Positions 15,044-18,518 of a DNA stretch of 20,310 nucleotides are shown one piece after another; within the stretch, counting starts at the first letter, position 1; the number at the start of each line of letters is the position of its first letter. Position numbers and translations under genes: made by a program. Location of the stretch: positions 1 to 20,310 of IMG/VR virus record IMGVR_UViG_3300010339_000103; one strand, written 5' to 3'. Under the pieces are notes generated by a model. The model made no database searches. It worked only from the letters and a program-made list of their open reading frames with translations, and was not told where the DNA came from. Source of the DNA: a virus.

Positions 15044-17793
15044 ATGGGATTCTCCCCAGCCGGAAACCAGCTTTCCAACCTGCCTCAGTCCACGGTAAAG
15101 TTTTCATAGAACTTAACGGAAAACCGTAAACTGTTGATTCCGCGGTAATTATGTATGACAAAAAGTTCCGTGAGAACCTTTGACCTAAGGGTTCTTTAAA
15201 TCTTGCTATATCCGTCAAAGTATGATACTATCATAAGAGACGGAGGAAAGACCTCATGCAAGCCAAAAATAATGGGTACCTCGCAGGAATTCTAGATGGT
15301 GAAGGCTGTATTTCCATTTACATTTCTAAGCGATGGGATAAGAGACAAAACAAATTTGGCTTTCGACCCGTGTTAGAGATTTCAATTTATCAAGCCGATA
15401 AGCGTTTGACGGATTGGCTTCAGTTTCATTATGGTGGTAAATGTTACGAACACACCATGAAAAATTCTACACGACCCGGATATCAATGGATTGCTCCTAG
15501 AGGCAAGGACCGCGAGTTGTTCGTTCTTGAGATGATGCCATATTTAATTCTCAAAAAAGAACAGGCTCTGTTAGCTCTTGAATACCTGAGACTCCCTAGT
15601 ACAGGGGACCGATGTAAAGAGCGATTTGACCTTGCCCGGAAATGTTCCACGTTTAATCGTAAGGCGTCGTCTACGAGTAAGATTGCCGCAAAGTACGAAG
15701 AAGCGATGAAAGCCTTTGAGGAATCCCCAACGACTAATACGCAAGACGTGTCAAGCCCCAAACTTGACTAAAGATAGAGTCTGAACTGCATGGTGACATG
15801 CAGAACGTGACCCCAGTGATGGGGACAACAATAACAAATTTGGAAGGCGCAAACCCCGTTCGTCGCATGCTCGGAACGTCTCGACCTGCCGATGAATTCT
15901 GGTAACCAGTATTTTTAAGCATCTTGTACTGGATATGCGATATTTGACCTAATTGGAGATGTTCATGTACGTTCCGCTGGCCGCTAACACCGTCCAGACT
16001 ACGGAAGGCACTGTGGGTTCTTCCCTCAGCGTCAGCGTACTGACAAATACCGCGACTATCGGTGAATTAATTGCTAGTTCACCGTAAAAACTTGACTATA
16101 TCGGTGGATATCTGCTATACTAAAATAGTAGACAATACCGAGGGAAGACACTATGAACGATAAACATCGTTGGCCGTATGTGGCTGGAATCGTGGATGGT
16201 GAGGGTAGTTTTTCCATCTATTACAACAAACATAGCGAGAATCACAATGCTCGCATTACGATTGGGAATACTTCAATTGAACTAATTAAATATTTGATGC
16301 ATAATTTTGGTGGAAAGTTTTATTCTTTTGACCCAAAAGACATGCACGGATTCAATCGTAAAACTATGCATTCTTGGAGACTCAGTGGGGTGAAGAATAA
16401 AGAGGATTTTATTCTAGGAATTCTTCCACATTTGGTTATCAAGAAAGAGCAAGCAAAGGTTTTCTTAGAGTTTTTGAGAATACCACGTTGTAATCAATGG
16501 TCGCTCAAGACTGATGTTGCAAAAAACAAAGAATTACGCGACAGTCTGATGCATAAATTATCTGCACTTAACCACGGTAGTGAACCTCTAACGACTAATA
16601 CGTCAAGCATCAGCAGCGATGCTGTAAAGATAGAGTCTGAACTCATGGGCGACCATGAGAGTGTCCCTAGTGTGAATTAGGGGACGTTCACGTTCCGTGA
16701 ACAGTCTTAAATCCTAAACAACTTTGATGCAGATTACGCGAACTTTAGTTCGCTCAGTCTTGCAACTGCCATTGATAACACAGTTGAGAACGTTGCCCGT
16801 GAAATGTCGTATCGCCTTGGCGAGTCGTTGTCCGCACTTGTGCGTGCAACCGCTGACGGCGCATCCAGCATTGACGCAAGCGTTCTTACACAACTCGCCC
16901 AGTCCAGCACTTCGAGTTTCACCGCTCTGTCGCTCTCTCAAATCCGTAACAGCGTTCAATCGCTGGCGGGTCGCAGTGTGCGTCCGTTTGATGAAGCTTC
17001 CAAGAGCTTCTCTGGTGTGATCCATCCGTTCGCATTGGGCGACGTGATTGCTGACAACAGCAATGACGCACCAATTGACATTCTCAAGCACACCCCGGTG
17101 GGTTTGATGAAGATGGATTCGCTGGTGTCGGTTGATCTGACCGAAGTTATCGAACTGCCTACAACGGGAGTCCAGTTTTATCAGACTAACCTTGTTACGC
17201 AGACCATTAACTACGGCGGAACTACCGGTCTGACGGCACTTCGCACTTACATCTTCGGGCGTGATGGTATCTTCTCCATTAACCTCGGAGCCAAGGGCGA
17301 CACCGGTTTCGGTGATGGCGAATGGCGTAACATTGAATGTAATATTGTTCAGAATGCGGAGCCAACCGTTGCCGATCCTGAAGGTTTGATCCCTGGATAT
17401 ACAAAGTCTGTCCAGGTTATATCTAGTAAACTAAAAGCGATGTCTGCTACCGCAGGTTGCTAATTGCTAGATAGGCGTAGTCATGTAAGATATTGGGACT
17501 TCTTACAGGGTTCACTTTACTACGTCACTCGGCCCTAAATGATAAGTATTGGGGCGAGTAATAAACCCACTCTGATTGACTTGGAAGCTGAAATGGCTAA
17601 CAAGGCGGAAGCTGAAAGGCACCGTGAGAGACTAAGTGAGCGGGCACCGAAAGGTGATGCGATAGTCCGAACTTGCAGGAATAACAATTGCAAGAGACTA
17701 GCAGAAATGTCTAGTCCCGCTGAAAAGCGAGTAACAATATTGGATACAACTATTAGGATGCGCCAGATTGACGCTGCTTCGGCGATCTCCTAA
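15044..17793 (+). CDS. Major capsid protein, N4-gp56-like, seven exons
   Basis: The capsid protein is rebuilt by joining 15044-15103, 15154-15179, 15843-15912, 15956-16067, 16727-17398, 17496-17536 and 17743-17793. The total is 1032 nt, one open frame, 343 residues. In order the exons give: MGFSPAGN..QSTVKF; YDKKFRENL; KAQTPFVACSERLDLPMNSG; EMFMYVPLAANTVQ..TIGE; YADYANFSSLSLATAIDN through GLIPGW; TSYRVHFTTSLGP; DTTIRMRQIDAASAIS. The NSG plus YVPLAA and TIGEYADY features, and the EGT element, fit the N4-gp56 capsid family (HK97 fold). Only the 672-nt fifth exon is a long ORF by itself; every other exon runs into a stop if read unspliced. The joins were placed with group I rules (U before, G at the intron end, P1 and P10 pairing) and family expectation. 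The ribosome binding site (CAGGTAA) is weak. Confidence 0.8.
15104..15153 (+). other. Miniature intron-like element A (50 nt)
   Basis: The first exon of the capsid gene ends in TTT at 15103 and runs into TAG three bases later than needed; the frame resumes at TAT 15154. P1: exon GUAAAGUUU (15095-15103) pairs with GAACUUAAC (15109-15117), one A.A mismatch, U.G wobble at the splice site. P10: UCAUA (15104-15108) pairs with the 3' exon UAUGA (15154-15158). The element ends in G. In between is one hairpin (CGGAA at 15117-15121 with UUCCG at 15138-15142). There is no room for a group I core. Confidence 0.65.
15203..15246 (+). promoter_or_regulatory. Promoter and SD-hiding hairpin of the intron 1 endonuclease
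   Basis: TTGCTA (15203-15208) and an extended -10, TGATACTAT (TACTAT at 15226-15231), with a 17-base spacer, form a plausible sigma-70-type promoter. The same DNA folds as RNA: TCCGTC (15211-15216) pairs with GACGGA (15239-15244), covering part of the GGAGG ribosome binding site, around an inner TATGAT/ATCATA stem. A message starting at this promoter would lack the 5' half of the outer stem, so the site would be free; read-through capsid mRNA would hide it. Confidence 0.5.
15256..15771 (+). CDS. LAGLIDADG homing endonuclease in intron 1
   Basis: The 171-residue protein has one LAGLIDADG helix, GYLAGILDGEGCISIYIS at residues 7-24, in which DGEG provides the acidic metal ligand. The single motif means it would act as a homodimer. 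FHYGGKCYE, LEMMPYLILKKEQALLALEYLRLP are the other conserved parts of the domain. It would cut intron-less alleles of the capsid gene at the intron insertion site to drive homing. ATG 15256 follows GGAGG nine bases away. The last dozen codons (TTNTQDVSSPKLD) run through the ribozyme's P7, P3 and P8, so protein and RNA core share sequence. It is a paralogue of the endonuclease in intron 2. Confidence 0.9.
   Translation: MQAKNNGYLAGILDGEGCISIYISKRWDKRQNKFGFRPVLEISIYQADKRLTDWLQFHYGGKCYEHTMKNSTRPGYQWIAPRGKDRELFVLEMMPYLILKKEQALLALEYLRLPSTGDRCKERFDLARKCSTFNRKASSTSKIAAKYEEAMKAFEESPTTNTQDVSSPKLD
15913..15955 (+). other. Miniature intron-like element B (43 nt)
   Basis: The capsid frame runs AACCAGTAT and then TTT TAA; it resumes 43 bases later with GAGATGTTC. 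P1: exon CCAGUAU (15906-15912) pairs perfectly with GUACUGG (15926-15932) including a U.G pair at the splice site. P10: AGCAUCUU (15918-15925), directly before it, pairs over eight bases with the 3' exon GAGAUGUU (15956-15963). The last base is G. The rest is one short AUAU-GCG-AUAU hairpin plus a UUGACCUAAUUG tail. No catalytic core can be present. Confidence 0.7.
16092..16145 (+). promoter_or_regulatory. Promoter and SD-hiding hairpin of the intron 2 endonuclease
   Basis: TTGACT (16092-16097), 18 bases, then an extended -10 TGC-TATACT (TATACT at 16116-16121) make a near-consensus sigma-70 promoter. As RNA, TCGGT (16101-16105) pairs with ACCGA (16137-16141) with an inner TACTA/TAGTA stem, overlapping the start of the GAGGGA ribosome binding site. 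The arrangement is the same as in intron 1 and parallels the known control of intron-encoded endonucleases in T4. Confidence 0.6.
16153..16680 (+). CDS. LAGLIDADG homing endonuclease in intron 2
   Basis: A 175-residue protein with the single motif PYVAGIVDGEGSFSIYYN at residues 8-25, followed by FGGKFYSF and ILGILPHLVIKKEQAKVFLEFLRIP, block for block like the endonuclease in intron 1. It would act as a homodimer and recognise the capsid gene at this second site. ATG 16153 follows GAGGGA. The C-terminal part (TTNTSSISSDAVKIESELMGDHES) is read through the P7, P8 and P9 RNA elements. The two endonucleases are clearly related, so one intron or its endonuclease gene may have arisen from the other by transposition. 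Confidence 0.9.
   Translation: MNDKHRWPYVAGIVDGEGSFSIYYNKHSENHNARITIGNTSIELIKYLMHNFGGKFYSFDPKDMHGFNRKTMHSWRLSGVKNKEDFILGILPHLVIKKEQAKVFLEFLRIPRCNQWSLKTDVAKNKELRDSLMHKLSALNHGSEPLTTNTSSISSDAVKIESELMGDHESVPSVN
17399..17495 (+). other. Short intron-like element 3 (97 nt)
   Basis: The capsid exon ends CCTGGAT at 17398. P1: CCUGGAU pairs with GUCCAGG (17410-17416), U.G at the splice site. P10: AAGUCU (17404-17409) pairs with the 3' exon GGACUU (17496-17501). The exons join as GGA-T/GG-ACT, giving GWTSYRVHF. The body folds as one domain: UAUCUAG (17420-17426) with CUAGAUA (17467-17473), enclosing AGCGA/UUGCU and UCUGC/GCAGG stems. I find no P7/P3/P8 arrangement, and 97 nt is below the size of any complete group I intron I know. 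Confidence 0.65.
17537..17742 (+). ncRNA. Group I intron 4, ORF-less (206 nt)
   Basis: The exon CTCG-G-CCCU pairs with GGGG-CGAG (17551-17558; one bulged G, U.G at the splice site), and GUAUU just before it pairs with the 3' exon GAUAC (P10). Core: GACTA (17630-17634) with TAGTC (17663-17667) forms P7; CACC-GAAA-GGTG (17645-17656) is P8 with a GNRA loop; CTTGCA/TGCAAG and ACTAG/CTAGT are 3' hairpins. It ends in G, and joining gives SLGP-DTTIRMRQ. This is a compact but complete-looking group I intron. Confidence 0.85.
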
Positions 17794-17888: not shown

Positions 17889-18518
17889 ATGAAAGCGCAT
17901 TCGGAAGAAGTACGTCAAAAGACTTTAGAATTATTGCGTCAACAGCGAAGCATGCAGGAAATATCTACCCGAACAGGGATATCTGTAGGTACGATAGAAG
18001 ATTGGGCTGCTGAGTGGCGAAAAGACGGAATGCTTGTTGAATACAAGCAAGAGGGTTCGAGATTTATAAAACATGCTCAACATCTGTCAAAAGGTTATTA
18101 CAAGTGCATTCGAAAGAGATATAATGGAATGCGCTGGACAGATAAGATGTTGAATCGCCAGTTTGGATTTGATAATATTTTACAAGCGATTCATTACTAT
18201 TTGAAGAATGGTCATCCTAGACCCTGTGCGTACTGTGGGAGATTCCCCGGTATCGGTAAAGTGTGGGGGCTAGACAGGATTAATTCTTCTTTAGGACATG
18301 TACCTGGAAATTTGGTCCCTTGTTGCAGTTCTCATTTCGAAAGCCCGCAACTTTCCTGCCAAGCCAGCAAATCAAAATTTTCATTGCTGTTTTGGATGGA
18401 AAGTAGTATGTCACGGGCTAACGGTGGAATTGTTCCGTTTCGTGTTGTAGAACAGCGGTTAGAGAGAATCTATACGCTGGCGAAAGAACTTGGTTCATTT
18501 GAACCAGAAAAGGAATAA
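17889..18518 (+). CDS. HNH endonuclease with N-terminal helix-turn-helix
   Basis: Residues about 5-45 look like a helix-turn-helix (EVRQKTLELLRQQRSMQEIS, then TGISVGTIEDW). The nuclease part has CAYCG near residue 113, then GLDRINSSLGHVPGNLVPCC, the core of phage HNH homing nucleases: DR...N...Y/HxPxN...CC. After PCCSS there is an extra HFESPQLS before CQASKSKFSLLFW, so the second CxxC is stretched. It is still one open frame of 209 residues. ATG 17889 follows TTAGGAGGG. It is a free-standing endonuclease gene next to the last capsid intron, a usual place for enzymes that promote spread of neighbouring introns. Confidence 0.8.
   Translation: MKAHSEEVRQKTLELLRQQRSMQEISTRTGISVGTIEDWAAEWRKDGMLVEYKQEGSRFIKHAQHLSKGYYKCIRKRYNGMRWTDKMLNRQFGFDNILQAIHYYLKNGHPRPCAYCGRFPGIGKVWGLDRINSSLGHVPGNLVPCCSSHFESPQLSCQASKSKFSLLFWMESSMSRANGGIVPFRVVEQRLERIYTLAKELGSFEPEKE

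Follow-up and report, generated by a model that had tools for sequence, protein, structure and literature searches.

The major capsid protein (MCP) gene of the soil phage in virus record IMGVR_UViG_3300010339_000103 is interrupted by six inserts that alternate between small and full size (50, 663, 43, 659, 97 and 206 nt from 5' to 3'). The window that we analyzed is the whole record of 20,310 bases. The fifth insert, a 97-nt element that we call S3, is probably a coreless group I-type intron, as judged from its sequence, whose P1 and P10 helices would rely on the core of the following intron, intron 4, which begins 41 nt downstream of S3. From the comparison of related genes, we think it reasonably likely that phage capsid genes hold a natural two-part group I system. 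In such a system coreless introns (down to 32 nt, with P1, P10 and a terminal G) would be cut by the next downstream core, one core would serve two introns in a fixed order, and the pair, sometimes together with an endonuclease-like gene, may spread as a cassette.

The bounds of S3 and its two splice-site helices, seven pairs for P1 and six for P10, had been proposed from inspection of the window, and our analysis confirmed them exactly (Table 1). The P1/P10 arrangement of S3 was matched by 0 of 500 shuffles of its body, and both helices show compensatory changes among the small inserts at this site. Dozens of intron-free relatives contain the exact empty site, reading IPGWTSYRVHF, including the cultured Tunturiibacter phage Tunturi_3, in which the MCP gene is uninterrupted. 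Full introns of 204-207 nt, of the kind that the original prediction had suggested looking for as longer forms at this position, do occur in the same W codon, likewise between T and GG, in three distant MCPs (L158, L171 and L201; L numbers denote MCP loci). In several small inserts at the S3 site, site 313 (17399-17465 in the window), the capsid frame runs on for about 20 codons, encoding similar residues (GYTKSVQ...AGR), before a stop, so that unspliced mRNA would yield a capsid protein with a different C-terminus.

Inspection of S3 for the characteristics of group I introns revealed a U·G-bearing P1, a P10 and a 3'-terminal G, and no P3-P8 core with the P7 G-site. Since the core is missing, S3 falls outside the group I introns proper, and it can be said to work like the substrate half of one. 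Rfam returned no intron family in 17300-17600 (E up to 10), nor on S3 in a scan of the whole window, and none of the window's Rfam matches, taken up to E 1, was to a group II family. Because Rfam missed intron 4 too, we built a covariance model, R1, of the class to which intron 4 belongs (class B) from 14 aligned full introns of this type, intron 4 among them. The consensus, with helix names of our own assignment, comprises P3, P4, P5, P6, P8, P9 and P9.1, and 28 of its 38 pairs show changes on both sides. Taken jointly, P3, P4, P7 and P8 pair in 99.6% of the cells of the alignment, compared with 37-52% when slid; P7 is invariant in this alignment and thus counts neither for nor against. R1 scored 191.9 bits on intron 4, whereas the region 17380-17510, searched with filters off, reached no more than 0.6 bits. 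This bears out the earlier view that neither a P7 partner nor a P8 is evident in S3, and the covariance-model check proposed with it gave no full group I fold and no P3-P9.

Other parts of the original prediction had to be revised. A multi-stem domain in the body had been read as a possible relic of P4-P6, and CGTAGTC near the 3' end as a possible P7 strand. By the R1 result the latter is not a P7 strand, and the relic is ruled out, since the body forms one two-part hairpin that is dispensable and scores no more than 0.6 bits with R1. The hairpin has z scores of -1.4 in the window copy, -3.2 in L002 and -3.6 in L240, and is lacking from the 36-nt insert of L222. By eye, this insert and the 83-nt insert of L240 at the same site have a common guide sequence and very similar tails and differ by the hairpin; the MAFFT alignment does not align these tails. 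The reported likeness of the S3 tail to that of intron 4 is literally present, but it does not track the partner in relatives. Finally, it had been suggested that S3 may be an intron caught in the middle of losing its core. A group I-type intron without a core fits what we find, but 97 nt is the upper end of a 48-member class spanning 32-98 nt, and the length is therefore not evidence of an ongoing transition.

This class emerged from 264 MCP loci that we mapped by spliced protein alignment with our own script. We kept 235; a contig may contribute more than one locus, and the loci are not independent phages. Inserts below 25 nt were disregarded as coding indels. Among the 235 loci, 107 were insert-free, and the remainder yielded 48 distinct small inserts (32-98 nt, at 13 sites) and 112 distinct full introns (180-1202 nt), with no insert of a size between 98 and 180 nt. 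Contiguous P1 (6-12 pairs) and P10 (4-8 pairs) totalling at least 10 pairs were present in 47 of the 48 small inserts, as was a splice-site U·G, and all 48 had a junction with T before the insert and G as its last base within 3 nt of the aligned one. The exception, a 49-nt insert at site 22 of L187, shows by eye an 8-pair P10 and one mismatch in P1. Shuffled bodies reached 10 pairs in 110 of 9600 cases. Exon and guide changed in a compensatory manner at nine helix positions. Small and full inserts both occur at sites 20, 22, 30, 52 and 53. The L331-site intron of L181 and the 292-site introns had no clear T...G junction. The final tally does not include the other 29 loci, which are short or have a distant MCP; L192, L196, L269, L281 and L290 among them show small-then-full pairs, some fitted by eye, and we considered 48-nt and 139-nt calls in L255, L257, L284 and L285 to be alignment errors.

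All 41 small inserts that were tested in an earlier set break the frame, 40 of them with an in-frame stop. The joined exons are under purifying selection: among 11 pairs, omega was 0.03-0.18 in eight, 0.32 for the near-identical L035/L253 and 0.48 for L222/L240, which has a frame problem, and could not be computed for one. The joined exons of L240 contain stops, probably from a single ignored 20-nt call. A spliced gene copy was not found among the contigs, since the intron-free ones included none that nearly matched a gene with small inserts (the best case, L039 against L128/L031, reached 96.8%). We consider excision of the small inserts to be well supported, and it would take place at the level of RNA.

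The key context, which lay beyond the original prediction, is that a complete intron lies directly downstream of every readable small element. In the alignment, the next insert is a full intron for 44 of the 48 distinct small inserts and another small one for none. Separate inspection of L222, L233 and L240 revealed a full intron after the small insert, near residue 340, and the contig of L174 stops after the first 41 nt of a new insertion, at site 330, that follows its small insert. Thus, the downstream side is readable for 47 of 48, each immediately before a full intron, at exon distances of 15-215 nt. Full introns often occur without a small insert. The same order holds for all small-to-full site pairs, 21 in the final tally plus 313 to 340, giving 22. 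It also holds in 29 of 29 distinct architectures, for which within-gene shuffling of labels gave a product of 1e-12 over cases that are not independent; here the full introns of L222 and L240 were added by hand and up to 15 truncated or duplicate entries were excluded by name.

Additional scans queried small inserts alone and were blind to full introns. The site-53 insert had a full intron downstream in 11 of 12 cases, with L293 ending at the insert; the site-313 insert did so in 13 of 14, with L295 (on the same contig as L046) ending 18 nt into the next insertion; and the site-20 insert did so in all 12 of its capsid places, found among 64 stretches. Some partners in these scans were seen via longer loci on the same contig, and L390, which ends inside its full intron, was counted from the beginning of that intron. 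The partner itself varies. The full intron after the site-313 insert is at 326, 330 or 340, the one after the site-20 insert at 28, 52, 53 or 90, and similar site-53 inserts precede a class A intron (the type of introns 1 and 2) at 89, a class A intron at 87 (L034) and a class B intron at 89 (L168). Such changes in the site and core class of the partner beside a constant small insert argue that a core is needed and not that a single block is inherited.

The only cores seen are in full introns, one of them next downstream of each readable small insert, and it is from there that we infer the core to come; the complete downstream intron probably does the cutting for the small insert. In the mechanism that we propose, the small element would supply the guide sequence, pairing with the 5' exon in P1 (with U·G) and with the 3' exon in P10, together with the terminal G, the hairpin being optional, and would be removed by two group I transesterifications. 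The core of the full intron 41 nt downstream, acting on the same transcript, would dock the P1/P10 helix of S3 first, so that the intron 4 core would splice S3 and then itself. The position of small elements upstream of, and directly before, a full intron would follow from this order, because by then any core further upstream would be gone from the transcript.

Several observations weigh against this reading. Pairing between the tails of small inserts and the cores of their partners was not beyond chance (mean fractions exceeded 0.39 and 0.41, versus other partners and shuffles). A small insert comes before 17 of the 18 distinct full introns at sites 318-331 and before 0 of 28 at sites 22, 186, 189 and 316, so the linkage of small and full introns also follows the site. 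Among distinct loci that have a 3' small-full pair, 12 of 23 carry a helix-turn-helix gene, compared to 7 of 98 others (Fisher 2.9e-6, loci not independent), and this, with the two-way association near the 3' end, indicates that part of the linkage could come from a co-mobile cassette. The portal gene bears one or two full introns without small ones. Two of the locus scans selected for full introns, the scoring of P1 and P10 took only T...G junctions within 3 nt, and the small inserts are known here from DNA sequence alone.

The cassette points lead to the alternative that another trans-acting factor, such as a released intron RNA or a phage or host protein, splices the small inserts and that the order reflects joint inheritance of a homing cassette. 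The two-way 3' association and the distribution of the helix-turn-helix gene would fit this, but a retained small insert can have a partner at another site and of another core class, co-conversion should also have put small inserts past the last full intron, where none is seen, and many partners have no room for an ORF of such length. We regard this explanation as unlikely, and slightly more so the possibility that small inserts are autonomous minimal ribozymes. Phialophora rDNA contains degenerate group I introns of 63-75 nt, one of which is reported to splice in vitro with P1, P7, P10 and exon pairing (PMC3160393), so introns of such size exist and have the P1/P10 geometry in common with ours. 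However, the shortest phage inserts (32 and 33 nt) have just 15-16 nt beyond P1, where a P7 would not fit, the 97-nt element gives no core signal, the fungal introns end in U and the phage small inserts in G, and self-sufficiency does not predict that every readable small insert stands directly before a full intron.

Two further explanations appear very improbable. T4 gene 60 contains a non-translated insert of about 50 nt near a homing endonuclease gene, and ribosome hopping over it needs matched codons. The phage small inserts are similar in size, have a junction hairpin and lie near homing endonucleases, and could in principle be left unspliced and hopped across in the same way. Yet take-off and landing codons yielding the right protein were found in 0 of 41 small inserts, and a P10 with the 3' exon and a terminal G would have no role. 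Dead insertions or assembly artefacts in inactive genes are hardly compatible with 48 distinct inserts over many contigs, purifying selection on the exons and covariation of P1 and P10.

The phage inserts also differ from the closest systems described. The small subunit rRNA introns of Phialophora and lichen fungi (PaSSU) are alike in being 56-81 nt long, with a G·U-bearing P1, a P10 and most of the core gone, but they lie in rRNA, form one monophyletic group, end in an omega-U, retain P7 and exon pairing and are reported to self-splice (PMC3160393). The phage inserts, 32-98 nt long, lie in a capsid gene at 13 sites, each readable one standing right ahead of a full intron; S3 in particular has a terminal G in a protein gene and no core signal, in place of the P7, omega-U and rRNA site of the Phialophora type. 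Group III introns of Euglena chloroplasts are also short and degenerate and are thought to be served by trans-acting machinery, but derive from group II (PMC4424553), whereas the phage inserts follow group I logic with an apparent one-to-one neighbor on the same transcript. Group I spliceozymes use a group I core to cut out an intron of about 100 nt that lies elsewhere; they are engineered, with the guide sequence in the ribozyme (PMC4094466), whereas the phage guide sits in the excised element. Twort orf142 likewise combines several group I introns and short exons in one phage gene, described there as group I introns with exon skipping and not as coreless introns (PMC10136302). We recognized no report of coreless group I introns in phages in the literature searched (introns, bypass and related terms, in one library), and a text search of the Tunturi phage paper found no occurrence of the word 'intron'.

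Group I introns are taught as self-contained ribozymes. A core-less class surviving only beside an intact intron would show how introns become dependent on a shared catalyst, and, if true, would be the group I counterpart of a step proposed for the origin of the spliceosome, in which self-splicing introns are postulated to have come to depend on such a catalyst (PMC4424553). The simplest history would be loss of the core by one full intron beside another. Small inserts at one site often have little in common beyond the guide sequence, and given this they may have been gained independently. Since Rfam missed introns here, such capsid genes look broken.

Table 1 Features of the MCP region, numbered as in the window
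Feature	Position	Strand	Details
MCP gene	15044..17793	+	Seven exons, inserts ordered small, full, small, full, small, full; spliced protein alignment to Tunturi_3 MCP
S1, putative small coreless intron, 50 nt	15104..15153	+	P1 6, P10 5
Intron 1, full group I, class A, 663 nt	15180..15842	+	Proposed partner of S1; Rfam Intron_gpI 28.6 bits, below gathering score 50
LAGLIDADG homing endonuclease ORF within intron 1	15256..15771	+	E 0.0005, below Pfam cut-off
S2, putative small coreless intron, 43 nt	15913..15955	+	P1 7, P10 8
Intron 2, full group I, class A, 659 nt	16068..16726	+	Proposed partner of S2; Rfam Intron_gpI 21.8 bits, E 0.089 (gathering score 50)
LAGLIDADG homing endonuclease ORF within intron 2	16153..16680	+	E 0.0028, below Pfam cut-off
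S3, putative small coreless intron, 97 nt	17399..17495	+	Missing from intron-free relatives
P1 of S3	17392..17416	+	Exon CCTGGAT 17392-17398 with GTCCAGG 17410-17416; 7 pairs including U·G at splice site
P10 of S3	17404..17501	+	AAGTCT 17404-17409 with exon GGACTT 17496-17501; 6 pairs
Dispensable two-part hairpin in S3 body	17420..17473	+	One long hairpin fold; lacking in L222 36-nt insert
Intron 4, full group I, class B, 206 nt	17537..17742	+	Proposed catalytic partner of S3; P7 GACTA/TAGTC; model R1 191.9 bits at 17562-17742; covarying consensus
Free-standing helix-turn-helix gene directly after MCP	17889..18518	+	Pfam HTH_23

The full introns of class A have features of their own. Intron 1 is similar to the T4 nrdD intron in P7-P9, and 33 nt at 97% are common with T4 nrdD records. 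Class A introns ending in A instead of G were found in 21 distinct cases at sites 30, 52, 90, 186, 189 and 211 (in L046, L054, L056, L071, L074, L151, L159, L168, L181, L221 and L222, and further in L244, L252, L256, L258 and L289). Their junctions are set by the reading frame and, in those inspected by eye, also by a contiguous P10. In the final tally, G is the last base of all 24 class A introns that come directly after a small insert, and 0 of the 21 terminal-A introns follow one. In an earlier set the counts were 22 G and 0 A after a small insert versus 10 G and 16 A otherwise (Fisher 4e-6), which collapsed by site to 7/0 versus 8/6 (p 0.06); both tables were entered by hand. This bias towards a terminal G in class A introns preceded by small inserts is suggestive only.

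The helix-turn-helix gene downstream of the MCP gene is a possible candidate for the homing endonuclease of the 3' small-full pair. A Cys-rich HNH-like stretch was seen in it by eye. Class B introns also occur outside the MCP gene. The portal genes of L199, L166, L230, L203, L147, L209 and others contain one or two ORF-less class B introns of 198-247 nt at residues 57-85. No small insert was accepted in portal or terminase genes, the short calls in portal genes, mostly multiples of 3 or weakly aligned, being set aside. Two further class B introns, at 2493-2687 of L370 (MW202674) and 2491-2687 of L369 (Roseobacter phage CRP-118), split a P22-type coat gene and a ribonucleotide reductase gene, respectively, the halves of which are annotated as separate genes.

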